A stretch of DNA of 64,000 bases from Pseudobdellovibrionaceae bacterium. Its GTDB lineage: Bacteria > Bdellovibrionota > Bdellovibrionia > Bdellovibrionales > Bdellovibrionaceae. Position numbers and translations under genes: made by a program. Under the pieces are notes generated by a model. That model saw only the letters and a program-made list of their open reading frames with translations, did no database searches and was not told the origin of the DNA. Shown piece by piece: positions 40,088-53,357 of the stretch. The stretch is from positions 1-64,000 of the forward strand of contig JAHBUS010000004.1 of the NCBI GenBank assembly GCA_019637955.1, in the 5' to 3' direction. Position 1 is the stretch's first letter. Each line of letters begins with the position of its first letter.

Positions 40088-41083
40088 TCATAAAATTTCG
40101 AGTTCCCCGTGCAAAGCTCCAGCTGCCTTGATGGACTGAAGTAGGGTGATCAGGTCTTTGGGAGAGACGCCGAGTTTGTTCAGCGCTTGCACCAGATCAC
40201 CGACGGAGACGCCCGAATCCAAGACCGCGACCTTTTGTTCGATCGGCGTTTTTGAATCCTTGGTCATGACTTTTACCGAGAGATTTCCGTGAGCGATGGC
40301 GATGCGCGAGACTTTCACCCGCTCTCCGATAATCACGGTGCCCGTTTTTTCATTGATCACGACCTTGGCCTTTTGGTCGGGATTGATTTCGATCGCTTCG
40401 ATCGTGGCGAGGAGCTCGACGCCGCGGCCTTCATAGGCGAAGGGGGTGACGATGTCGATGGTGCCGCCGTCTTTGGCCGAGGCATACTGCCCGCCAAGTT
40501 CGCGGTTGATCGTGAGGACCGATCGCGAGGCGGTGATGAAATCGGGATTGTGCAGCGTTAGGCGGAACATTTTTCTCGAGGAGAAATCGCTCGAAACGTC
40601 GCGCTCAATAATGCCGCCATTGGGAACACGGCCGACGGTGGTGAACGCGTTTTTGCCGTCACCGCCGATCGAGATCGTGCCTTGCGCGACCGCGTAGACC
40701 TGTTCGTTGGCCGCGCGCAAAGGCGTTTGCAAAAGCGTTCCGCCTTCGAGCGAAGAGGAGTCACCGATCGCGCTCACGGTCACGTCGAGCGGATTTCCGG
40801 CTTTTCCGAAAGCGGGCATGGTGGCGGTCACGATGACGGCCGCCGCATTCTTGGATTCGACACTTTGATTTTCAAGCTTCACGCCCAGCTTGTCGAGCAT
40901 GCGCGCCAGTGACTTCGAGGTGAATTCGGATTTGCCGTCGCCCGTGCCTTTTAAACCCACCACGATGCCGTAACCGATCAGCTGATTCTCGCGCACGCCG
41001 CGGATGCTGGCGATGTCCTTCAAACGGGCCGCTTCGGCCGCAAGTCCCGCGAACAAGAGCGCGAACAACAGGAGGTGTTTCAT
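40088..41083 (-). CDS. flgI: flagellar P-ring protein FlgI
   Basis: Forms the periplasmic P ring. 331 residues with signal peptide LLLFALLFAGLAAEA and the strongly conserved LKDIASIRGVRENQLIGYGIVVGLKGTGDG-type start, NAAAVIVTATMPAFGKAGNPLDVTVSAIGD, VPNGGIIERDV, and C-terminal GVSVGDLVQALNKLGVSPKDLITLLQ. Overlaps the flgH stop by 4 nt. Confidence 0.97.
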   Translation of the reverse strand: MKHLLLFALLFAGLAAEAARLKDIASIRGVRENQLIGYGIVVGLKGTGDGKSEFTSKSLARMLDKLGVKLENQSVESKNAAAVIVTATMPAFGKAGNPLDVTVSAIGDSSSLEGGTLLQTPLRAANEQVYAVAQGTISIGGDGKNAFTTVGRVPNGGIIERDVSSDFSSRKMFRLTLHNPDFITASRSVLTINRELGGQYASAKDGGTIDIVTPFAYEGRGVELLATIEAIEINPDQKAKVVINEKTGTVIIGERVKVSRIAIAHGNLSVKVMTKDSKTPIEQKVAVLDSGVSVGDLVQALNKLGVSPKDLITLLQSIKAAGALHGELEIL

Positions 41084-41823
41084 AGGCTCGCCTTCTCTTT
41101 CTTGCGGATGCTCACGACATCGTACTGGGGATCGAGCAATTTGCCGGAACCCACGCCCTCGTCATTAAAGTCTTCGGGGCGGATCAATCCGGTGACGATC
41201 ACCTTGTATTCACGTTTGCCGATCATGAAAGGCTGTTGGCCTTTCACCCGGTAATTGCCGTCGGCCATGCGCTCGACGATGCGAGTGGGAACGGCTTCGA
41301 GCTGCAAGGGTTCGTCTTTTTCCTCGGACTTCGGCGCCGCGGGTGCCGAGGCCGGCGCGCGCTTGGCATCCCCTCCGCCGTCGGCGAGGTTCTGCTGAGG
41401 CTTCTGACTCTTGAGTTCTTCGTCTTCGAGCTGTTTCAGGAGCTTTTTGATGACCGCCACTTTGGTTTCGATCTGCTTTTGCGCGGCGCCCTCGATTTTC
41501 ACGTTGAGCAAGTCGCCCTCGCGGCGCGATTTGTTTTGCGCAAACAAGTACGCACCCTGACCGTCGTTGACCCACATCGAACCGGCCTGCGAGTGGATCT
41601 CGGCCTCTTCTTCCATGCGCTGACGGGTCATCCGCTTGTAATTGCGGTTCGCCACGTTGAGCATGTTCGGATTGTCCGAGAATTTTTCGATGGTCTCGCC
41701 TTCGGGCGTCGTGGGCACCAGCCCAACGCTCTCCTTGGCCGATTCCCACGTCGCGCAGCCCGCCGACAAGACGGCCGCCACGATGAAACATCCGAACAAA
41801 AGGGCGCGAAGCGAACTCATCAT
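41080..41823 (-). CDS. flgH: flagellar L-ring lipoprotein FlgH
   Basis: Outer-membrane L-ring component. Lipobox LSAGC near residue 22, then the FlgH core: GSMWVNDGQGAYLFAQNKSRREGDLLNVKIEG, and the C-terminal RMADGNYRVKGQQPFMIGKREYKVIVTGLIRPEDF followed by KLLDPQYDVV. An Ala/Pro/Glu-rich insert lies in the middle. Two adjacent ATG codons could start it; the first overlaps the flgA stop by 1 nt. Confidence 0.95.
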   Translation of the reverse strand: MMSSLRALLFGCFIVAAVLSAGCATWESAKESVGLVPTTPEGETIEKFSDNPNMLNVANRNYKRMTRQRMEEEAEIHSQAGSMWVNDGQGAYLFAQNKSRREGDLLNVKIEGAAQKQIETKVAVIKKLLKQLEDEELKSQKPQQNLADGGGDAKRAPASAPAAPKSEEKDEPLQLEAVPTRIVERMADGNYRVKGQQPFMIGKREYKVIVTGLIRPEDFNDEGVGSGKLLDPQYDVVSIRKKEKASL

Positions 41824-42791
41824 CACTGGATCCTCACCAAACCGCGTTCAACAATCTGACCCGAAACCATTTTTTGCGTCTCGAGATTTTTCATTTTGAC
41901 GTAATCGCCAATCGCACCCGACTCCTCGGCTTGCATCTGGCTTGAAACTTCGAACATGTCGTTTCCCGAGAGAACGCGGATCATCTGACCGCGGGACACG
42001 ACGACTTCTTTCTTGAGATCCGAACGGAACAACGGGCGTCCCAGACCGATCCCTTTGTTCAAAACACGGCCTTCAAGGTCGCTGGCCGTCGCGAACGCAT
42101 CGGCAGCGTAGTTCACGTCAAGCTCTTCCGTGCGCAGCGATCCCGTTTCGGGTTTCTCGCCCATGCTCATCACCTTGGTCGTCACGAGGGCTTTCGCCCT
42201 GGTTTGCAATGTGCCGGTCACGTACAATGTCTTTTCTTGACTCTCGAAATGCGCGCGCAGGGGAAGCAAGAAGCTCCCCGACACCTTGAGAGACGACAAA
42301 TCAAGTTCGTAGGCGTACATATCGCCGCGGCTCTCGAGCGCCGGGAGCTTGATGTCTTTAATCTTAAATGAACAGGTGTCGCACTTCTGCATGAGGGATT
42401 CGAGGATGAGCGCCGTCACCCGGGTCTGCGAAATGAGATTTTTCACCGCGCGGACCTTGATTTTTTCGGGAACAAAGTAGGTGAAGTTGTAACCTGAAAG
42501 CTCGGGTTGAACCGCGATCTTCTCTTTCAAGAGACGCACAAATTCGGGCCCGTTGAAGGTTTGCTCTTCGCCCGCGAACATGGCCTCGACCAGAACGGTC
42601 TGCCCGGCCTGCGTGATCGCCGCCGGAGACACGAAGTCGGCGCCGCCCAAGTCGCGAAGCTGCACGGGCTGACCCGCGCTCACTTCGTGAACCGCGGTGC
42701 TCATGATCGCGATCTCGGGACGTCGTCCCTGCGCCAAGACGGGCATCGCGATGAGAAGCTGTAAAAAGAGGATTCCTGCCGTTTTCAACAC
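41823..42791 (-). CDS. flgA: P-ring assembly chaperone FlgA
   Basis: Periplasmic chaperone for FlgI. GTG start at 42791 with GAGGT 6 nt upstream, signal peptide LFLQLLIAMPVLA, a divergent N-terminal half, and a SAF-domain C-terminus: VLNKGIGLGRPLFRSDLKKEVVVSRGQMIRV, then GAIGDYVKMKNLETQKMVSGQIVERGLV, which is typical FlgA. 322 residues, longer than E. coli FlgA. Confidence 0.9.
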   Translation of the reverse strand: MLKTAGILFLQLLIAMPVLAQGRRPEIAIMSTAVHEVSAGQPVQLRDLGGADFVSPAAITQAGQTVLVEAMFAGEEQTFNGPEFVRLLKEKIAVQPELSGYNFTYFVPEKIKVRAVKNLISQTRVTALILESLMQKCDTCSFKIKDIKLPALESRGDMYAYELDLSSLKVSGSFLLPLRAHFESQEKTLYVTGTLQTRAKALVTTKVMSMGEKPETGSLRTEELDVNYAADAFATASDLEGRVLNKGIGLGRPLFRSDLKKEVVVSRGQMIRVLSGNDMFEVSSQMQAEESGAIGDYVKMKNLETQKMVSGQIVERGLVRIQ

Positions 42792-42794
42792 TCG

Positions 42795-43580
42795 TTACCT
42801 CAGACTGTTCACGGTTTGCAGCATTTGGTCGGCCGCTTGAATCGCTTTACTATTGGTCTCGTATGCGCGCTGAGCGGTGATCATGTTCACCATCTCGTCG
42901 ACGATATTCACATTCGAAGACTCGATCTGCCCTTGCGCCAAGTAGCCGGTGCCCTGCAGGCCGGGGCGCACGGTGATCGGCTGGCCGCTCGCCGGCGTGC
43001 TCGTGTAGATATTTTTTCCCATCGACTTCAGACCCGTGGGGTTCACGAAATTGACGATATCGATCTGACCGATCTGACGGACTTCGTTGGTGTTGCCGAT
43101 CGTCACGCGCACTTCGCCCGATGACGAAATTTCGATGCCCGAAGCATCCGGAGGAATGGTGATCTCGGGCTGAAGAACGTTGGCATTCTTATCGACGATG
43201 CGGCCCTGGGCGTCTTTCTTGAATTGCCCGTCACGCGTAAACCCCACTTGTCCGTCGGGAGTCAGGACCTGAAAAAATCCCGCGCCTTCGATCTGCATAT
43301 CCAAGGGATTTTTGGTGATGCTCGAGTTCCCAAAAGACATGTCGCGCTGAATGGCGGCCGTGCGCACGCCCAAGCCGGTCTGCACGCCCGTGGGCGACAC
43401 CGAGTTGAGGCCCGTCGCGGCGCCCGGGTCCTTGGCATTTTGGTACATGAGATCTTCGAACTCGGCGCGCGATTTTTTGAAACCGGCGGTCGACACGTTC
43501 GCCAAGTTGTTGGAGATGACGTCCATGTTCGTCTGCTGCGCTTGCATGCCGGTCGCGGCGGTATTCAAAGCTTTTATCAT
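42795..43580 (-). CDS. flgG: distal rod protein FlgG
   Basis: 261 residues. N-terminal IKALNTAATGMQAQQTNMDVISNNLANVSTAGFKKSRAEF region and C-terminal SNVNIVDEMVNMITAQRAYETNSKAIQAADQML are the rod/hook signatures, and the central GVRTAAIQRDMSFGN fits FlgG specifically. Starts 11 nt after flgF ends. Confidence 0.97.
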   Translation of the reverse strand: MIKALNTAATGMQAQQTNMDVISNNLANVSTAGFKKSRAEFEDLMYQNAKDPGAATGLNSVSPTGVQTGLGVRTAAIQRDMSFGNSSITKNPLDMQIEGAGFFQVLTPDGQVGFTRDGQFKKDAQGRIVDKNANVLQPEITIPPDASGIEISSSGEVRVTIGNTNEVRQIGQIDIVNFVNPTGLKSMGKNIYTSTPASGQPITVRPGLQGTGYLAQGQIESSNVNIVDEMVNMITAQRAYETNSKAIQAADQMLQTVNSLR

Positions 43581-43591
43581 CGTTGATCCCC

Positions 43592-44410
43592 TTAAGACGT
43601 TTTAGGAACTTGGTTGACGAGTTTGTCGGCCATCGAGTCGTACGCGCTGATCGCTTTTTGCGTGCTCTCGAACGTGCGCGTCGTTTGGATCATGTCCGTC
43701 ATCTCGCGCACGATATTGACGTTGCTCGACTCCAAGAATCCCTGTTTCAGCGACGGGTTCTGCACCACGCTCACTTCGGGCTGAAAGTTCTTTTTAAAGT
43801 CATAAAGACTGTTGCCGACTTTTTGGAGCGCGTCCTTATCCGCGACTTCGACCATGCTGAGGCGGCCAATCAAGTTCTCGCCTTCCATGACGTCGCCGTT
43901 GTCGCTGATCGTGATTTGCGATCCCATCCCGACGCGGATCACGCGGCTGGCGGGGTCCACGCCGCCCTCACCCGAACCCGACAAAACGGGAAACCCGTCT
44001 TTCGTGACGAGCTGGCCATTGCCATCAATCGTGAACGAGCCGTGGCGGCTCAAACGAACGCCGCTCGGCGTGGCGATCTCGAAAAAGCCTTTGCCATCGA
44101 TGGCCACATCCAAAGGATTGCCGGTGGGCTTGAGCCCGCCTTGAGAAAAGTCCGTGAAGGTTCCGGCCGTATCGACGTAACTCTTATCGCCGCCTTGCAT
44201 GTCGTAAAAACTTTCGATCGAGGCCGGCACTTTGGGGACCTGGATCACCGACGGGGGCTTTTCGTTGGCCGTGAGGTACTCTTGAAACACTTGCTGGTCG
44301 CGTTTGAACGACGGCGTGTTCACGTTGGCGATATTATTCGAAATGGTGTCGAGCTTTTGCGACTGGGCCATCGCTCCGCTCAAGGCCGTAAAGACGCCTT
44401 TCATACTCAT
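43592..44410 (-). CDS. flgF: proximal rod protein FlgF
   Basis: 272 residues with rod-family ends (LDTISNNIANVNTPSFKRDQQVF; SSNVNIVREMTDMIQTTRTFESTQKAISAYDSM). It differs from the neighbouring FlgG in the middle and its position before flgG fits FlgF. First gene of the flgFGAHI run; a sigma-54-type site lies 26-41 nt upstream of the ATG. Confidence 0.9.
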   Translation of the reverse strand: MSMKGVFTALSGAMAQSQKLDTISNNIANVNTPSFKRDQQVFQEYLTANEKPPSVIQVPKVPASIESFYDMQGGDKSYVDTAGTFTDFSQGGLKPTGNPLDVAIDGKGFFEIATPSGVRLSRHGSFTIDGNGQLVTKDGFPVLSGSGEGGVDPASRVIRVGMGSQITISDNGDVMEGENLIGRLSMVEVADKDALQKVGNSLYDFKKNFQPEVSVVQNPSLKQGFLESSNVNIVREMTDMIQTTRTFESTQKAISAYDSMADKLVNQVPKTS

Positions 44411-44451: not shown

Positions 44452-44668
44452 TTCGTGCCAACAAGCCGATGGTCGAGACCAGATTTGCCGGGAGGCTATT
44501 AAGTCCACAACCAGATCAACCGATAGGAAAATTTCGCCTTTCGCGCCGTCAAGATCCTGACGGCACAGTCAAAGAATCCGCGCGCCGCCCTCCACGGCCT
44601 TGGGCCGGGTTTCCCGGTGCGCTCCGGCCCGTGATGACAGGCGGTTTTTCCTCTCGGATGATGAACGG

Positions 44669-45673
44669 ATGAGACACAGGATGTGCCTTCTTTCGACCGT
44701 CAGCATGATGCTTGCCTTGGCCGCCAACACCGCCGCTTCCGCGCCGATGCCGCCCACCTTGAATCTTCCGGAGGCCTCCACCGAGATCGCGGTCGCACCC
44801 GTCACACCGCCGTCTTTGCGCGAGCGCCTGCTCAATAAAAAAATCAATGCGCCCCTGAATTCGGCGTCGCTCGTCTTCGATCTTCCGGTGACCTACAACG
44901 CCAAGGTCAGCCACTGGGTGAGCTACTTTCAGAACAAAGGCAAAAATTGGTTCCGCGGCTGGATCGAGAGATCGACCCGGTACATGCCTTTCATTCAGCG
45001 CGAGCTTCGCAACGAGGGCTTGCCGCAAGATCTCGCTTTCATGGTGATGATTGAGAGCGGATTCGATCCCTATGCGCAGAGCCACGCGTCGGCGGTCGGC
45101 CCATGGCAATTCATCCAGCCCACGGCGGAACGCTACGGCCTTCGCGTCGGTTGGTGGATCGATGAACGCAAAGACCTGCGAAAGGCCACGCGTGCGGCCA
45201 TTCGCTACATCCGTGATCTTTACACCGAATTCGGCTCTTGGTACCTGGTCGCGGCCAGCTACAACATGGGCGAAAACGGCCTGCGCCGTCAGATCAAAAA
45301 GCATGGCACCAAAGACTATTGGGCCTTGGTGCGCGCGGGCGCGCTCCCTTTGGAAACTCAAGATTACGTGCCCAAGATCTTGGCCGCGATGCTGATTTCG
45401 AAGGCGCCGACCCTCTATGGCTTTCGCGATATGGTCAAAATGGAACCCTTGGACTATGAACTCGTCATGGTTCGCGGCGGCACCGATCTCAATCAGCTGG
45501 CCGACCACCTTGGTGTCACGCGAAAATCGCTGAAAGACCTTAACGCCGAGATCGTCCTTGGCTATATTCCGATGCAAATCGAAAAGCACCCGGTTCGCGT
45601 GCCTCGCGGTTCAGTGGGACTCGTCGCCGACTTTGTCGGCGCTCGCCGTTCGACCACCGCGTCCACGCCCTGA
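44669..45673 (+). CDS. exported lytic transglycosylase (MltD-like)
   Basis: Cleaves peptidoglycan glycan strands. Signal peptide TVSMMLALAANTAASA; SLT core near residues 125-230 with catalytic Glu in MVMIESGFDPYAQSHASAVGPWQFIQPTAERYGL-type motif (ESGFDP, AVGPWQF), then AASYNMGENGLRR. A C-terminal LysM-like segment follows (MVRGGTDLNQLADHLGVTRK, LKDLNAEI). It lies opposite flgF, and FlgJ here lacks an active hydrolase, so it could open the wall for the rod; that is a guess. Confidence 0.88.
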   Translation: MRHRMCLLSTVSMMLALAANTAASAPMPPTLNLPEASTEIAVAPVTPPSLRERLLNKKINAPLNSASLVFDLPVTYNAKVSHWVSYFQNKGKNWFRGWIERSTRYMPFIQRELRNEGLPQDLAFMVMIESGFDPYAQSHASAVGPWQFIQPTAERYGLRVGWWIDERKDLRKATRAAIRYIRDLYTEFGSWYLVAASYNMGENGLRRQIKKHGTKDYWALVRAGALPLETQDYVPKILAAMLISKAPTLYGFRDMVKMEPLDYELVMVRGGTDLNQLADHLGVTRKSLKDLNAEIVLGYIPMQIEKHPVRVPRGSVGLVADFVGARRSTTASTP

Positions 45674-45706: not shown

Positions 45707-46894
45707 ATGTTGATCGTGCAAAAATTTGGCGGCGCCACGCTCTCGACGGCGGAGAAAATCCGCCAGGTCGCTTCGCGCATCGGCGCGCAGGTGAACGCGG
45801 GCAACCAGATCGTCGCCGTCGTCTCGGCGATGGGGTCCACGACCAATGAACTCATCTCTCTCGCCCAGCAAGTCAGCCCCAATCCCACGCTCCGTGAAAT
45901 GGATATGCTCCTCAGCGTGGGCGAGCGCATCAGCATGTCGCTCATGTCGATGGCGCTCAACGACCTCGGCATCAAGGCCACGAGCCTCACGGGCAGCCAG
46001 GCCGGCATTTTGACCGATGACTCCCACTCGAATGCGTTCATCCAAGACATCAAAGGCACGCGCGTGCAAGAAGCCCTGGCAAAAAATGCGGTCGTGGTGA
46101 TCGCGGGTTTTCAGGGCGTCTCGCCCGTGACCAAAGAGATCACCACGCTCGGGCGCGGCGGCACCGACACGACCGCCATCGCCATGACCGCTTTTTTGGG
46201 AGCGCACCACTGCGAAATTTTAAAGGACGTCTCGGCCGTGTTTTCGGCCGACCCCCGTTTGGTTCCCGAAGCCAAGCCCCTGCGCGAACTCAGCTATGAG
46301 CAAATGGCCGAGATGACGTTCTGGGGCGCCAAAGTTTTGCATTACCGTTCGGTGGAACTCGCGCTGCGCGAAAACGTCGACGTCTATGTCGGCCCCGCCA
46401 GCGAAATCGCGGACGGCACTTGGATTCGCGCGAAAGGATCGACCATGTACGAAAAATTGGGCCTGCTCTCTCTCAACTCTTTCGAAAAAGTGCTGCGGCT
46501 CTCGTCATCAAAGGCCGAGCTGACATCGTCCTTCAAAGATCTCGAAAAGAGCTGGGCGGCGGCGCAAATTCCTTCGCCCCAATTCTTGTCGATCGAGCAC
46601 GGGGGCGGAAAATGCGAAGCGTGGATCACCGGTCCCGGCGAGATTTTGGCCGCCATTGAGAAATGGGTCCCTTCACAAAAAGAATGGGGACTCGAAAGCG
46701 GTTCATGGTCGTCGGTCACGGCCACTTGCGCGGGCACGACGTCGGGCCCGCTTACCGAGTCGATCATGAAGACGCTGGCCACTGAGGGCATCAAGCCCCT
46801 CGCCTGCCGCTGGACGTCGCTGGGGCTCACGCTGTTGGTCCCCGCGGACGTGCGCGTGCGCACGATTCAATGCCTTCACGGTTTGGTTCGTTAG
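45707..46894 (+). CDS. lysC: aspartate kinase
   Basis: Phosphorylates aspartate, first step to Lys, Thr, Met and diaminopimelate. Catalytic domain motifs: VQKFGGATLSTAEKI, VVSAMGSTTNELISLA, TLGRGGTDTTAIAMTAFLGA, KDVSAVFSADPRLVPEAKPL, MTFWGAKVLHYRSVELA. The C-terminal ACT regulatory part (residues 250-395) is divergent. 395 residues. The paralogue cluster begins convergently 15 nt downstream. Confidence 0.93.
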   Translation: MLIVQKFGGATLSTAEKIRQVASRIGAQVNAGNQIVAVVSAMGSTTNELISLAQQVSPNPTLREMDMLLSVGERISMSLMSMALNDLGIKATSLTGSQAGILTDDSHSNAFIQDIKGTRVQEALAKNAVVVIAGFQGVSPVTKEITTLGRGGTDTTAIAMTAFLGAHHCEILKDVSAVFSADPRLVPEAKPLRELSYEQMAEMTFWGAKVLHYRSVELALRENVDVYVGPASEIADGTWIRAKGSTMYEKLGLLSLNSFEKVLRLSSSKAELTSSFKDLEKSWAAAQIPSPQFLSIEHGGGKCEAWITGPGEILAAIEKWVPSQKEWGLESGSWSSVTATCAGTTSGPLTESIMKTLATEGIKPLACRWTSLGLTLLVPADVRVRTIQCLHGLVR

Positions 46895-46908: not shown

Positions 46909-48417
46909 TTAAGGATCCAGTGATTTCAGCAACTCGACGTAGCGCAGATTCATCTGCTTCCACATATTGACGTGCGATGCGTAGATCTCTTTGTGCACGT
47001 TCATCGGCGCGGCCGCGGTGGGCCGGCGAACTTGATTGGGGTCCATGTTCGGGCGGAACTGATCCATATTCGGAGTGCCGGGCTCTTTCTCCACCTTCGG
47101 CGGAATCCAAGAACCCGAGGCCGTGTAGGTGCCCTTTCCTTCGATCGGAGAATCGGCACTGCGGCCAAAACCGGTGGCGCGATTTCCCAGGGAACCGTTG
47201 AGAACATCGGTGTTGATCTTCGAAGGGCCGCCCATGCGGCGCAGTCCGGGTTTATTGGCGCCGGTCGAACTCGCCCCGCTCAATCCAGTGGTTCCGCCTC
47301 CGCCGCCGCCTTGGAGGTTCGAATCGGTTCTTGAGCTTTGATAGCCCGAGGCATTTCCGTCTTGACCCAAGGACCCCGGACCTCCGGGTGTGGGGCTCTC
47401 TCCAGAGGAGTCCGCCCATTTTTCGGCGCCGTCATCGGGATTGCTCACCGAGCGCGTGCGCGGCGAACAATTTCCCGAAGCGCAGCGGCACACTTCATTC
47501 GTCGCCGCGAATTCGGGGTTGGTGCAATCTTGCTTGGCCTGAATGCAACCGGGTGCGTTCGGCGTTTTATTGCAATCGAGGGTGGGCGTCTGATCCGCTG
47601 AAGTGCCCATGCCGCCCATGCCTTGATCGGCCAGGCACTGCTGCGCGCGCGCGGACGCCTGCTGAACTTGATTCTGTTGATTTTGCAAGTTGGCCATTGC
47701 CGAGCTTCCCGAAGAGCATTGATTCCGGGCATTGGCGAGTTCGGATTTCTGCGACGACGAGAGTTGGTCTTCGTTGACGCTCGAGCAGGCACTCGAACAG
47801 GCCGACATCGCATTCTGACACTGGCTCATGATCGTGGTGATGGCGTTGTTCGCCTCTTGCGCATTTTGCCCGGCTTGGCGGCAAGAATCGGAAACTTGAG
47901 CTTGCTGCTGCGAATTCATGGCCTGACCATTTTGCGAGGCGCCGGACGTGAAGTTGCCGGCATTTGAGTTGATGTTCGAGGCCGAACAGCTGCTCGACAC
48001 CGAAGAGCCCGCGATCTTGCAACTGCTGAGCATCTCGGCGGCGTTGTTTTGCGGAGTTCGCTGAGAGCCTTGCTGCCGGCTCGGCGTGGGTGTCGCGGCG
48101 GCCGCTGAGATGTTGGTGGGTCGACGGGGCGGCAGCGGAACATTGGCAGCGGCCGGGGCCGACGCATTCGTCGGTCTCTGGACGGAGGCGGCCATCTCCC
48201 ATCTTCGATTCAGACTGCAGGTGGCCGTGTTGCCGAACACCTGCTTGGTCTCGCCCGGCGTGCAAGTGTCATCTGGCGGGGGCGCCGGAATCGCGTTCTC
48301 ACCGCCATTGTTCGTACAGATCACGTTCGCGCGCACTTCTTTACCCGCTTCACACTGCTCGGCGTGAGCCGTCATCGAGATCGAAGTTAGAATGAGAATC
48401 ATGAACGCGACGCGCAC
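46909..48417 (-). CDS. exported Cys-rich paralogue 1 (novel family)
   Basis: 502 residues. Signal peptide ends near residue 19 (ISMTAHAEQ). Four Cys in an N-terminal module (22, 34, 52, 67), a Pro/Ala linker, a Gln/Ser/Asn-rich helical module with Cys at 133, 144, 179, 200, 207, 211, 234 and 261 (MSACSSACSSVNE; ARAQQC), a short Cys block at 282-317 (PEFAATNEVCRCASGNC), a Gly/Ser-rich linker, and a conserved end: GSWIPPK near 435, FRPN, and HVNMWKQMNLRY at 482. Unknown family. A palindrome copy lies 67 nt upstream. Confidence 0.8.
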   Translation of the reverse strand: MRVAFMILILTSISMTAHAEQCEAGKEVRANVICTNNGGENAIPAPPPDDTCTPGETKQVFGNTATCSLNRRWEMAASVQRPTNASAPAAANVPLPPRRPTNISAAAATPTPSRQQGSQRTPQNNAAEMLSSCKIAGSSVSSSCSASNINSNAGNFTSGASQNGQAMNSQQQAQVSDSCRQAGQNAQEANNAITTIMSQCQNAMSACSSACSSVNEDQLSSSQKSELANARNQCSSGSSAMANLQNQQNQVQQASARAQQCLADQGMGGMGTSADQTPTLDCNKTPNAPGCIQAKQDCTNPEFAATNEVCRCASGNCSPRTRSVSNPDDGAEKWADSSGESPTPGGPGSLGQDGNASGYQSSRTDSNLQGGGGGGTTGLSGASSTGANKPGLRRMGGPSKINTDVLNGSLGNRATGFGRSADSPIEGKGTYTASGSWIPPKVEKEPGTPNMDQFRPNMDPNQVRRPTAAAPMNVHKEIYASHVNMWKQMNLRYVELLKSLDP

Positions 48418-48483
48418 GGGCTCCCCCTCACCACTTCTTTATCGGCCACCTCGACCTTTTGCTAGAGGTGGAACGGGCGAATT

Positions 48484-48496
48484 TCTCAAATTGAGA
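48484..48496. promoter_or_regulatory. palindrome TCTCA-N3-TGAGA (copy 3)
   Basis: TCTCA AAT TGAGA, perfect, in the 85-nt gap upstream of paralogue 1 (start 48417), followed by ACGC as in copy 2. It suggests paralogue 1 has its own regulated promoter. Confidence 0.6.
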
Positions 48497-48502
48497 CGCA
48501 GA

Positions 48503-49969
48503 CTAGGGAATGAACGTTCCCTGAAGCAATTGGTAGCGAAGGTTCATCTGCCGCCACATGTTCACGTGCGACGCATAAATTTCGCTGCGGACATTCATCG
48601 ACGACGGTTTTCGAAATTGATCGCGCTCGAGATTGGGACGGAACTTGTTCACGTCGATGGCGTCATCGCTCATCTTCGGAGGGATCCACGAGCCGGAATT
48701 GCTGTAAGACCCACGGTCTTCCCCGCCCTCTTGGCTTCCGGAACCGAACTTACCGGCCCCCTTCGCCGCCACCAAACCGGCCAGCGTATTGGCGTTGATT
48801 TTCGAATGATCGCGGGACGCTTTCACGCCGGGCGTGTTGGCGCCCGAGTTGGAGCCTCCGCCCGAGCCGCCGCCGCCGGCGCCTCCGCCTTGGAGATTCG
48901 CATCGGCATAAGAACTTTCATAGCCCGCTCCTGGCGAGCCGTCGAGAGATGCGTTCATGTCCGGCGTGGGACTTGCGTCCTCTGACACCGCGGATGTGTC
49001 GGCACCTTCGTCGGTGGCCGACGCCGCGTGCTTCTGCTCGCCGCAATTTCCCGAGGCGCATCGACAGACCTCATTCGTCGCCGCGAATTCGGGATTGCTG
49101 CAATCTTGCTTCGCTTGGAGACACCCGGGCGCATTGGGCGTGGCGGTGCAGTTGACCTCTTTATTGGTCGGTTCATTCAATGAACCGCCTTGACCGACAT
49201 CGTTTAAACATTGCTGAGCGCGCTGCTGATTTTGCTGAACCTGACTTTTTTGCGATTGAAGCGTCTGCAACGCCGAGTTCCCGGACGAGCACTGGCTTCG
49301 AGCCTGCGCAAGTTCATTTTTTTGCTGCTGACTTAATCCCGACTCGGTCACTTCCGAGCATGCGCTTGAACAGGCGGACATCGCTCCCTGGCACTGACTG
49401 ATAATCGTATCGATCGTGCCCCCCGCTTCTTGGGCATTCTGACCAGCCTGCCGGCACATATCGGCCGTTTGATTCTGCTGCTGCGCCGAAATTTGCTGCC
49501 CCGTTTGGGACGACCCGTTGGTAAAACTTCCCGCGTTTGAATTCACCGCGCTTGTGGAGCAGCTCGTGGCAACGGCACTTCCGGAGGCCTTGCAGCGCTC
49601 GAACTTTTCGTTGCCGCCACGGGCATTGCTCGTGCGTCCCGACGGGTTCGTGCGGGTCGGCTGTTGTGAACGGGTGGATGCGGGCGCCGAGAGGTTCGTG
49701 GGACGGGGCTGCGGAACTGGAACGTTTTTCGCCTCGAACTCCCAAGAGCCGCGCTCATTGCAGACCATGCGTCCACCTTGAACATCGTAGGGGTCGTTTT
49801 TCTCCGAGTTGCAGACAGGATTCGGGTTGATGTTCATCGTTCCACCCCGCAATCCGGGGGGACGCGTGTCGATGCCTTCGGTCGGATTTCTTGGCAGGTT
49901 GGCCGTGGCCGTCGAGACGACCACCGTCAGACCGACCATTAGAATGTCGCGAACAAAACGCACGTGCAT
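48503..49969 (-). CDS. exported Cys-rich paralogue 2 (novel family)
   Basis: 488 residues from the ATG at 49969, which has AAGGA 8 nt upstream and gives a signal peptide (ILMVGLTVVVSTATA). Same order of parts as paralogue 1: N-terminal Cys pair, helical Gln-rich Cys module (MSACSSACSEVTE; QRAQQCLNDVG), the Cys block NPEFAATNEVCRCASGNC, Gly-rich linker (NLQGGGAGGGGSGGG), and end GSWIPPK, FRPN, HVNMWRQMNLRYQLL. It is the closest relative of paralogue 1 by eye. Confidence 0.8.
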   Translation of the reverse strand: MHVRFVRDILMVGLTVVVSTATANLPRNPTEGIDTRPPGLRGGTMNINPNPVCNSEKNDPYDVQGGRMVCNERGSWEFEAKNVPVPQPRPTNLSAPASTRSQQPTRTNPSGRTSNARGGNEKFERCKASGSAVATSCSTSAVNSNAGSFTNGSSQTGQQISAQQQNQTADMCRQAGQNAQEAGGTIDTIISQCQGAMSACSSACSEVTESGLSQQQKNELAQARSQCSSGNSALQTLQSQKSQVQQNQQRAQQCLNDVGQGGSLNEPTNKEVNCTATPNAPGCLQAKQDCSNPEFAATNEVCRCASGNCGEQKHAASATDEGADTSAVSEDASPTPDMNASLDGSPGAGYESSYADANLQGGGAGGGGSGGGSNSGANTPGVKASRDHSKINANTLAGLVAAKGAGKFGSGSQEGGEDRGSYSNSGSWIPPKMSDDAIDVNKFRPNLERDQFRKPSSMNVRSEIYASHVNMWRQMNLRYQLLQGTFIP

Positions 49970-49983
49970 GTTCCGCATCCTTC

Positions 49984-51195
49984 TCAAGGTTTCAACGTCG
50001 CCTTCAGCGAGATGTAACGAAGACTGATTTGGTGCCACATATTGACGTGAGGCCCATGGATCTGCCGAGGAGCATCGCTCGCGAGGCCGCGTCCGTTCGC
50101 GGCCGGTCGGAATTTGTCGACATCGATATTGGACTCATTCATTTTGGGAGGAATCCACGAACCCGAATTCGAGTAACTTCCACCCGACACGGTGCCCGCG
50201 CCTTGCGGAACCACGAGTCCCGAACCGCCCGCGCCCGCCAGGACGCTGGGTTTGGGCTCATCCACGGTGAACTCCTCGCCCGAGCCGGCATCGCTGCTGC
50301 CACCCGAACGGGCTCCGCCCGTGGCGCCGCCACCGCCGGTGATATTGGGATTTCCGTAGGCGCTTTCGAAGCCGGGGTTTCCACCACCGCCCGCCGAATC
50401 GAATCCGCCACCACCGGCGCTGCTCAAGCCTCCGGTCGAGTAATCGTCGCCCTGGTCAGGATTGGTTCCCGCTTGGCGCTGCGGCCCGCAGCCGCCATTG
50501 AGACATTTACAGACTTCATTGCTCGCCGAAAATTCGGGGTTCGAGCAATCTTGCGCCAGCTTAAAGCACTCGGGCGTGTTGGGATTCTCTTGGCAGGTCT
50601 TGGCCTTCTCTTGTGGGGATTGCGGCATCTGCGGCATTTGCGGCATCTGCCCTTGCCCGGCGTCGCTCTTACACTGTTGAGCGCGCTGCTGGGCCTGCGT
50701 CGCGTTTCCGCGCTCCGAGGTGATCCCCGCAATCAAGCTCTCGGCGGAGTCGCACTTCTCTTTGGCCTCGCGCACTTTCTTTTGTTTGTCCGCGCTCAGA
50801 CTTGAAAGGCGGCTTTGCGCCGTCTGGCACGAACTTTTGCATTCATCATAAGTGGTCTTGCACTGCTCGCCGATGCGATCAAGCGTGGAGCCCGCGGCCT
50901 GCGCGTTTTGCCCGGACTGGTTGCACATATCCGAGACGTTGGTATTCGAAGACTGCTGGATTTCGCGGCCCGTTTCGGTCGACGAATTCGATTGATCCGC
51001 GGCCTGCTGATTGTCGTTCTTGGTCGAGCAAGCCTGAGGAATCGCGTTTCCTTTTTGGATACAAGCCTCAACCGGATCGGCCGGAGCCCGGCGATTGTTA
51101 TTCGCCTTAGGCGCCGTCTGGCGCGCAAGACCTTCCGTCGGCACCAGGCCGACAACGGCGAAGAATAAAATCGGCGTCAAAGCTGATCGCAACAT
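49984..51195 (-). CDS. exported Cys-rich paralogue 3 (novel family)
   Basis: 403 residues; ATG at 51195 follows AAGGAAG. Signal peptide LTPILFFAVVGLVPTEGLA. It lacks the N-terminal Cys module of paralogues 1 and 2. It keeps the helical Cys module (DECKSSCQTAQSRL; QRAQQCKSD), a short MPQ repeat (MPQMPQMPQ), Cys block NPEFSASNEVCKCLNGGC, Gly-rich linker, and end GSWIPPK, FRPA, HVNMWHQISLRY. Confidence 0.8.
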   Translation of the reverse strand: MLRSALTPILFFAVVGLVPTEGLARQTAPKANNNRRAPADPVEACIQKGNAIPQACSTKNDNQQAADQSNSSTETGREIQQSSNTNVSDMCNQSGQNAQAAGSTLDRIGEQCKTTYDECKSSCQTAQSRLSSLSADKQKKVREAKEKCDSAESLIAGITSERGNATQAQQRAQQCKSDAGQGQMPQMPQMPQSPQEKAKTCQENPNTPECFKLAQDCSNPEFSASNEVCKCLNGGCGPQRQAGTNPDQGDDYSTGGLSSAGGGGFDSAGGGGNPGFESAYGNPNITGGGGATGGARSGGSSDAGSGEEFTVDEPKPSVLAGAGGSGLVVPQGAGTVSGGSYSNSGSWIPPKMNESNIDVDKFRPAANGRGLASDAPRQIHGPHVNMWHQISLRYISLKATLKP

Positions 51196-51206
51196 CGTTC
51201 TTCCTT

Positions 51207-52604
51207 TTAAGGCGTCAACGTGGACATGATTTTCTGGTAGCGTGAGTTCACTTGCTTCCAAATATTCACGTGCGGCGCGAGCAAGCCGTTCGGCAGCACA
51301 TCGTTCGAAGCCAAACCGCGATTCTTGAAGGCGGCGTCGCTCGGACGGAAACGGTCAAAGTTGATTTCATTGGGATTCGGCGCCACTTTCGGAGGGATCC
51401 ATCCTCCATCAGGACTGACCGTCCCGCCGTTCAAAGCCTGACCATTTTTGAAGGCTCCGGGGGCTCCGCTGCCACCGACAAAGCCTTTATTCACCTCGGC
51501 GTTGATGCGCGAGGGGTAGTAAGCAGCCTGTCGGGGTTTGGGTTCATTGGCGCCGCGGCCCGAGCCACCACCCATCCCGCCGCCGCCGGGGCTTCCGGGA
51601 AGCTGCGAGTTGATTTTTTCGGTGGGCGTGATCGAAGGCATCTCGTAATTGCTTTTAGTCCCGAAGGCATCCAGCGTTTGCGCGCCGAGCGTTCCGTCAT
51701 TGATCGAGCCTTTGTCGGTCCCACCGGCGGGTCCCTGATAAGGAGAGGTGCTTCCCAAGTTGGCCTGACCGCAGCGCGAGTCACGGCCGTTCGAGGCTTG
51801 GCAGATACAGGCGATGTTGGTCGAAGCCACCTGAGGATTGGTGCAGTCTTGCGGAAGCACCAAGTTGCAATTCGGCAGCGCCGGGTTCGCACGGCACTGC
51901 TCAAGTGTGGGCAACTGATTGCCCGTGGTGTCTTGCACGCACGTTTGCGAACGCTGATAGGCCTGCAGGGCGCCCGCGATGTTTTGGTCCAAAGACTTCA
52001 AACGGGTTTGCGCACTATTGCACTTGGTCTTGTGGCCGCTGAGCTGCGAGGTGTACGTCGAACGGTCTCCCGCAGGAAGTTGCTTAATCGCGTCTTCGGC
52101 TTCTTTACAAGAACTTGAGCAGGAGTTGAAAGACATCAAGCAGTTCGCTTTGATCGCGCCCATCGCGGTGTTGGCCGCGCCGGCGGTTTGCGCCATCGTT
52201 TGGCACGTCTCCGCGCTCGTGGTTCCGGTGCCCGCGTTCATTTGCGCAAGGCCTCGCGCCAAGGCGTCGGCGCCATCCAGGATTCCACCCATGCTGCCAT
52301 TGCGATCGGTCGCGCAAGACCCCACCGTGCTTTCGGCCGCGGTTTCGCACGCGGCGATCGCGCGGGTCACGGCATCGACCTGCTCGGACGTGGCGGTGGA
52401 GGCGGGGGTCTGGTTGGCCGAAGCGGGCGTTTGGGTGCCACTCGGGGTGGTCGTCCCTGCCGCCTGGAAAACCAAACGGCCATTTCGACAAACATAAGTT
52501 CCAGCGTCGACGTGGTCGTCGGCGGTGCACGGATCTCCTTCAGAGTCGGCATGACCGATCGTGCAGAACAACATCAATGTGGTGAGAAGCAATAGGCTTT
52601 TCAT
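51207..52604 (-). CDS. exported Cys-rich paralogue 4 (novel family, most divergent)
   Basis: 465 residues. Signal peptide LLLLTTLMLFCTIGHA. N-terminal Cys pair (GDPCTADD; TYVCRNGRLVF), helical module with FNSCSSSCKEAEDAI and QRSQTCVQD, Cys block NPQVASTNIACICQ, Gly-rich linker, end GGWIPPK, FRPS, HVNIWKQVNSRYQKI. First gene of the leftward cluster; upstream lie palindrome copy 4 and a sigma-28-like -10 element. Confidence 0.8.
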   Translation of the reverse strand: MKSLLLLTTLMLFCTIGHADSEGDPCTADDHVDAGTYVCRNGRLVFQAAGTTTPSGTQTPASANQTPASTATSEQVDAVTRAIAACETAAESTVGSCATDRNGSMGGILDGADALARGLAQMNAGTGTTSAETCQTMAQTAGAANTAMGAIKANCLMSFNSCSSSCKEAEDAIKQLPAGDRSTYTSQLSGHKTKCNSAQTRLKSLDQNIAGALQAYQRSQTCVQDTTGNQLPTLEQCRANPALPNCNLVLPQDCTNPQVASTNIACICQASNGRDSRCGQANLGSTSPYQGPAGGTDKGSINDGTLGAQTLDAFGTKSNYEMPSITPTEKINSQLPGSPGGGGMGGGSGRGANEPKPRQAAYYPSRINAEVNKGFVGGSGAPGAFKNGQALNGGTVSPDGGWIPPKVAPNPNEINFDRFRPSDAAFKNRGLASNDVLPNGLLAPHVNIWKQVNSRYQKIMSTLTP

Positions 52605-52871: not shown

Positions 52872-53357
52872 ATGGAAAAAAACTTTTTCGATTTCACCGT
52901 TCAAGACGCGAGCGGCAACCCGTTCCCGCTCAAGCAACTCGCCGGAAAACCCGTGCTCGTCGTCAACGTCGCGAGCAAATGCGGCTTCACTCCGCAGTAT
53001 GCGGGCCTCGAAGAGCTGCATAAAAAATACGGAGCCAAAGGCCTTCAAGTGATTGGCTTTCCCTGCAATCAATTCGGCGGACAGGAGCCCGGAACGGATT
53101 CCGAAATTCAGCAATTCTGCCAAATCAACTACGGGGTCTCTTTTCCGGTTTTGGCGAAAGTCGACGTGAACGGCTCCGACACCGCACCGGTTTACGAATT
53201 CATGAAATCGGCGGCACCGGGCGTGCTCGGCACCGAAGCCATCAAGTGGAACTTCACCAAGTTTTTGATTGGCCGCGATGGCAAGGTCCTCGACCGCTTC
53301 GCGCCCCAAACAAAACCCGAAGAGCTGTCGAAGGACATCGAAAAGGCCTTGGGCTGA
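52872..53357 (+). CDS. glutathione peroxidase-family thiol peroxidase
   Basis: 161 residues. Peroxidatic Cys in VVNVASKCGFTPQYAGLE, the family block IGFPCNQFGGQEPGTDSEI, and the Trp-Asn catalytic motif IKWNFTKFLIG. Cys rather than selenocysteine; enzymes of this type usually use thioredoxin. The ATG at 52872 has CAGGAGA upstream. No signal peptide, so cytoplasmic. Confidence 0.93.
   Translation: MEKNFFDFTVQDASGNPFPLKQLAGKPVLVVNVASKCGFTPQYAGLEELHKKYGAKGLQVIGFPCNQFGGQEPGTDSEIQQFCQINYGVSFPVLAKVDVNGSDTAPVYEFMKSAAPGVLGTEAIKWNFTKFLIGRDGKVLDRFAPQTKPEELSKDIEKALG

Follow-up and report, generated by a model that had tools for sequence, protein, structure and literature searches.

Four consecutive genes on the minus strand of the window (the whole stretch of 64,000 nucleotides analyzed here) encode exported, cysteine-rich proteins and lie close to a block of flagellar genes. 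This arrangement raises the question of whether the four proteins belong to any described family and what role several such proteins could have in the cell envelope.

Layout of the Gene Cluster

The cluster begins with gene D (51207–52604, 465 aa, ATG at 52604), the first gene of the presumed transcript, followed on the same (minus) strand by gene C (49984–51195, 403 aa), gene B (48503–49969, 488 aa) and gene A (46909–48417, 502 aa, GTG start). The intergenic gaps are 11, 14, and 85 bp in that order, and a Shine-Dalgarno-like stretch was found ahead of each start (aaggaag before the ATG of gene C); on account of both features the genes look like one transcript, read D-C-B-A. A sigma-70 scan upstream of gene D found no promoter. 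Each of the four proteins has a Sec-type signal peptide, recognized by eye, by which the products would be expected to leave the cytoplasm.

Gene D diverges from a glutathione-peroxidase-like (GPx) gene upstream (52872–53357, plus strand). At the other end, gene A converges with lysC (aspartokinase; 45707–46894, plus strand; named by eye), which is also the neighbor in most of the relatives that have copies at this locus. Beyond it are an MltD-like lytic transglycosylase gene (44600–45673, plus strand; SLT-LysM by eye) and flagellar rod and ring genes of FlgG-type, FlgA-like, FlgH, and FlgI (40088–43601, minus strand), identified by eye with the exception of FlgH (41155–41592), which was identified by PF02107. 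The transglycosylase and flagellar genes are likewise syntenic neighbors.

Paralogy and Conservation of the Four Proteins

With gene C as query, genes B, A, and D were matched at E-values of 1.1e-65, 5.5e-52, and 1.3e-28, respectively, far beyond chance. Their alignment has invariant Cys columns, an NPxxxxxNxxCxC block, a Gly-rich stretch, W-I-P-P-K, FRP, HVNxWxQxxxRY and a last residue of Pro. The original prediction had described four tandem exported Cys-rich paralogues with the same order of parts, and the ORFs, the signal peptides (by eye), the paralogue scores and the alignment all confirm this. WIPPK was found in the window four and in one further member of the same genome (on contig G000:C1); the other relatives examined lack it.

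In the family as a whole, the order of parts is a signal peptide, a variable N-terminus, a Cys-rich helical bundle, an NP..NxxCxC block, a Gly-rich linker and a conserved tail. The bundle has about eight conserved cysteines, the block after it is small, and about 12 cysteines are conserved overall. In gene A, the helical Cys bundle and the NPEFAATNEVCRCASGNC block occupy residues 129–318 (47464–48033, minus strand) and contain the conserved Cys columns of the alignments. The tail motif of the family, [FW]xxxxxRY, lies in a short amphipathic-looking helix; the tails end RYxxxxxxLxP with no hydrophobic stretch, and Pro is usually the last residue (exactly C-terminal in 41 of 59 members). Using tail profile A3, which includes two of the four window tails (those of C and D), the tails were located on the minus strand at 46912–47070 in gene A (E 2.2e-5), 48506–48655 in gene B (4.7e-8), 49987–50124 in gene C (5.1e-15) and 51210–51362 in gene D (5.1e-19).

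Mean pairwise identity within the window set is 55% for the Cys block, 45% for the tail, 33% for the helical bundle, 27% for the Gly/Ser linker and 21% for the N-terminal region, the last being also the most gapped part (58% gaps). In copies from outside the window the tail is the best conserved part, with 83% identity among Bdellovibrio-like copies and 50% among the other members compared. A retained C-terminal end, as had been predicted, is therefore found. The variable middle that was predicted along with it holds in part: the linker and the N-terminus do vary and could constitute a diversified portion, but the Cys-bearing core is well kept and its Cys block is the best conserved part of the window set. 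A signal for membrane or wall anchoring was not seen, as the proteins have no C-terminal transmembrane stretch and no match to a CTERM or sorting family of NCBIfam.

Searches of Known Families and Structures

No match above the curated cut-off (or at E ≤ 0.001 where no cut-off exists) was obtained from Pfam, NCBIfam, PHROGs or PADLOC, in agreement with the suggestion that the family is new. The best family-library match was the coiled-coil-like V-SNARE to gene C (0.00069), which is under its cut-off. The Tad/prepilin-type N-terminal helix (PF13400/PF07811) is absent from the window proteins by Pfam. A sequence search of PDB structures gave no credible relative and no TcpF- or CofJ-like match; one weak match to a solved structure in the Gly-rich part was taken as an artefact of composition.

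The AlphaFold2 model of gene C has a helical bundle at residues 15–155 (pLDDT mostly 85–97), corresponding to the helical stretch of gene A. The Cys block was modeled with less certainty, residues 212–312 form a disordered linker (pLDDT below 40), and close to the C-terminus there is a short helix with a pLDDT of about 60. Fold searches with this model returned generic coiled coils and helical bundles only, and for this reason no fold relation is claimed.

Distribution of the Family

The four window proteins on their own were too narrow a query set and gave no match in named genomes, and a wider alignment (A2) had no stretch conserved enough for searching. A profile of the four sequences found matches in 17 of 40 relatives, all of the same family. 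With 23 sequences, matches were found in 53 of the 66 genomes in the family and 97 of the 141 in the order, and with 27 sequences in 126 of 369 genomes of the phylum, namely 118 of the 141 in the order and eight of the 228 outside it. Two of these eight, matched at E-values of about 1e-42 to 1e-44, belong to the same class; the other six, found elsewhere, are weaker. Many of the 118 matches in the order were not read individually; because Gly-rich sequence can inflate profile scores, those distant matches whose sequences were retrieved were inspected by eye for both the Cys pattern and the tail. A restriction of the family to the window's own taxonomic family had been considered and was dropped after the order-wide and phylum-wide searches. 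The C-terminal motif thus occurs well beyond the four genes and no well-described domain was matched, the two points on which the original prediction could have failed. Judged by these searches, this is an order-wide family of predicted exported proteins that has no name in any library searched and that a model predator also carries.

The window genome has seven members: the window four, one at ~124–125 kb of contig C1 (G000:C1, with WIPPK), one at ~171 kb of C10 (G000:C10) and one at ~558 kb of C1 (G000:C1). Two Cys-containing, exported tandem paralogues with no Pfam match lie directly upstream of the C10 member (L104, 3328–6531). A DNA pattern for GPDGITGP was matched in 14 stretches, including Bdellovibrio bacteriovorus strain kdesi, other Bdellovibrio MAGs and a Pseudobdellovibrionaceae MAG. 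Two irregular records were encountered. A family member is present in CALQIT020000111.1 (L063, 7161 bp), a MAG record titled Streptomyces griseus, a title that is probably wrong, and another member (G106:C55:9368-10834) is broken by an in-frame TAG, possibly as a decayed copy or through an assembly error.

The highest copy number seen was in a Bdellovibrio-like genome, G046, with up to 10 matches. Such numbers, together with the presence of the family in B. bacteriovorus, could indicate predation effectors which are released into the prey and for which the tail is a secretion signal only. This is very unlikely, as the proteins have no enzymatic domain, the family occurs in most of an order of which many members are possibly non-predators, and no expression data were found in the literature searched.

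Copies at the Flagellar Locus

Only in f1, which we infer to be the Bdellovibrio family, was the gene order recA-GPx-[Cys-rich]-lysC-MltD-flg found, and there it extends across many genera. One relative has two divergent copies at this locus. In B. bacteriovorus HD100, RecA is Bd0512 and FlgF is Bd0530 (PMC12546842), and from these tags and the synteny the HD100 copies should lie between the two. Literature on locus tags Bd0512–Bd0529 yielded RecA (Bd0512) and the unrelated Bd0519, with no family member mentioned.

A Cys-rich gene lies within 15 kb of FlgH on the same contig in 37 of the 52 f1 genomes with FlgH, usually about 6 kb away (counted on a subset of the tables for which coordinates were entered by hand). 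This proximity and the synteny would suit envelope proteins associated with the flagellum or its sheath, acting beside the rod and ring genes of a sheathed flagellum. However, lysC and MltD intervene on the opposite strand, the copies of several families that adjoin a TadG-like gene sit elsewhere, as do others at unrelated sites, and members occur in genomes that are 93–99% complete and have no FlgH match (e.g., G085, G100, G126, and G064), although in divergent genomes the search may have overlooked FlgH. On the last of these grounds an exclusively flagellar role lost weight, and it is considered improbable. Judged from its sequence and setting, the window cluster is a lineage-specific tandem expansion at the flagellar locus.

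Copies at the TadG-like Locus and Phylogeny

In a second setting, found in f1 and in other families, the Cys-rich copy immediately follows, on the downstream side, a large gene for a TadG-like minor pilin, which in one relative has a PF13400 Tad domain (1.2e-8). A family member was present within 6 kb of the TadG-like gene in 53 of 72 genomes, this being a subset of the tables with coordinates entered by hand; in 51 of these it shares the strand of the TadG-like gene, and in each of the 51 it lies downstream. The TadG-like gene, identified by a 47-residue N-terminal domain alone, was detected in 131 of 140 order genomes, and RcpC, a marker of the Tad machinery, in 136 of 141. Several genomes holding both have no family member. 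Since all three are nearly universal in the order, their co-occurrence is a poor test of partnership. In the model of the TadG-like protein (mean pLDDT 62) a long helix at the N-terminus is accompanied by another long helix and by strands, and a fold search with this model gave no useful match.

The neighbors at this locus are NagZ, DUF3108-like, AnmK, AmgK-like, MurU-like, and Opp-like genes (AmgK, MurU, and Opp assigned by eye and weak Pfam class). An operon, apparently the ancestral one, amid such genes, and the MltD-like lytic transglycosylase gene near the window cluster, could mean that the proteins belong to the periplasm or cell wall and are connected with the turnover of peptidoglycan. 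Yet no peptidoglycan-binding or catalytic domain was found in the family by Pfam or NCBIfam, and a long disordered linker with a conserved tail would be unusual for a periplasmic enzyme, so that this role too is regarded as improbable.

A third exported protein, f4, often adjoins the TadG-like/Cys-rich pair, and its tail resembles that of the family. A 50-column tail profile recovers the C-termini of the family. When it was rebuilt without its one f4 row, most f4 proteins were among the top non-family ORFs of the 2,231 searched (E 0.003 to 1.8), and hhalign gave a probability of 53%, the likeness of single sequences being weak. These scores are suggestive of similar tails in f4 and the family. 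In the window genome the TadG-like gene (G000:C10:79845-82061) adjoins f4, but neither has a Cys-rich neighbor, the window four being on another contig. This pair (L126, 7717–11065) lies amid sigma-54 regulator, AmgK-like, MurU-like, AnmK, DUF3108-like, NagZ, and TonB-like genes, surroundings which correspond to the conserved peptidoglycan-recycling neighborhood. Other ORFs were observed beside family members: a 765-residue ORF in G007 is a further tail-bearing protein (L046, 9165–11462; tail profile 3e-11), and six tandem paralogous ORFs of about 280–310 aa, which end in AMKP and look like an expansion of exported proteins, adjoin the member in G123 (L117, 8986–14052).

A quick maximum-likelihood tree of 59 members, for which the root was not inferred and in which many branches are long and some joins were flagged unsafe, has two sides. 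One holds all TadG-locus copies and some dispersed copies (support 93) and the other all flagellar-locus copies and the remaining dispersed copies. Genes A, B, and C fall together in a starred group with support of 98, which the C1 member and gene D join with support of 86 and 93. The tree fits one old copy at the TadG-like locus followed by repeated lineage-specific expansions, and the copy at this locus is probably ancestral. As the oldest copies would then lie beside a pilus-tip gene, the family proteins may be shown or released by a pilus used on prey.

The same expansions, a conserved C-terminus joined to a variable N-terminus, and tail-bearing proteins of more than one architecture are also what would be expected of surface proteins independent of any pilus, in which the C-terminus would serve as an outer-membrane anchoring or export signal while the N-terminus varied in response to prey or phage. 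The original prediction had likewise proposed a fixed anchoring or export end with a diversified surface part. NCBIfam gave no match to a C-terminal sorting family and there is no transmembrane stretch, and such a role is considered unlikely.

Proposed Docking on a Tad Pilus Tip

The preferred reading, to which a rough probability of 0.35 is given, is that the family consists of soluble exported proteins with diversified heads, docked by the C-terminal tail onto the tip of a Tad pilus. The cysteines would form disulfides that staple the head, the Gly-rich linker would be a tether, and the tail would serve for docking on a partner shared by all members. The likeliest candidates for this partner are the TadG-like protein and the Tad (Kil-like) pilus assembly whose tip that protein would form. 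In this way the stapled head could reach the cell surface or be released there. The window four and the other flagellar-locus copies would then offer different heads to one dock, each lineage having diversified its own. The working mode would resemble the hooking of TcpF and CofJ on a type IVb minor pilin, but with a C-terminal hook and a Tad pilus.

Docking is proposed because of the order-wide occurrence of the family, the adjacency of the TadG-like gene, the likeness of the f4 tail, the structure model, the conservation of the tail, the tree and the presence of RcpC. It is weakened by the TadG-like/f4 pair of the window genome, which no Cys-rich gene adjoins, by the weak single-sequence likeness of the f4 tail, by the several genomes with TadG-like and RcpC genes that have no member, and by the lack of a TcpF/CofJ-like match among solved structures. 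It is weakened further as the TadG-like protein is known by its 47-residue domain and has a model with no fold match, and as the peptidoglycan-recycling neighbors allow another reading.

A broader proposal, held to be rather doubtful, is that these proteins make up a new class, docked on a pilus or on the envelope, with the shared tail as the address and with disulfide-stapled heads that would be exchangeable, each lineage having its own set of heads, several to a locus, for one Tad-type tip. The Tad (Kil-like) pili of Bdellovibrio have been tied to prey attachment and invasion (PMC6561027, PMC8460266), and TadC (Bd0470) is required for attachment by B. bacteriovorus (PMC6561027). Docking, if true, would supply named candidate parts for prey contact by these pili. 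Even if it is wrong, an order-wide family of exported Cys-rich proteins with a common tail marks a clear gap in the envelope biology of a model predator.

Comparison with Known Systems

The PEP-CTERM, LPXTG/sortase, and MYXO-CTERM systems also have a short conserved C-terminus common to proteins with different upstream parts. The family tail differs from these in having no transmembrane helix or basic end and no NCBIfam CTERM match, and in ending LxP and containing a modeled helix. Within Bdellovibrio, the hit-locus proteins Bd0108 and Bd0109 are about 100 and 200 aa in length. Both are exported and linked with pilus function (PMC3818213), and it is by size alone, the family proteins being much larger, that they are set apart here.

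The Kil/Tad pili of Myxococcus xanthus have interchangeable, disulfide-rich TadEFG tips, and tip complexes have been predicted in B. bacteriovorus (PMC12075869). The KilL-KilM-KilN tips (TadE/F/G) are comparable in their many cysteines and several paralogous sets, and in that a TadG-like gene with a Tad N-terminus lies upstream in the presumed ancestral locus. The layout of the TadG-like model recalls that reported for KilN, two long helices and a beta-scaffold (PMC12075869), the comparison being with the published description alone. Unlike these tip proteins, the Cys-rich family lacks the PF13400 helix, has a Sec signal peptide and has a helical rather than beta-stranded globular part.

The closest parallel in working mode would be with TcpF of the Vibrio cholerae TCP and CofJ of ETEC CFA/III. 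In TcpF it is a flexible N-terminus that hooks onto the minor pilin TcpB (PMC9565799), whereas the tail of the family is C-terminal, the pilus is of Tad rather than TCP type and the docking is proposed from sequence. Both kinds of protein are soluble and Sec-exported. The disordered linker and conserved tail of the family may correspond to the flexible terminus with a conserved motif, and an adjacent minor-pilin gene is present for the TadG-locus copies, as distinct from the window four at the flagellar locus.
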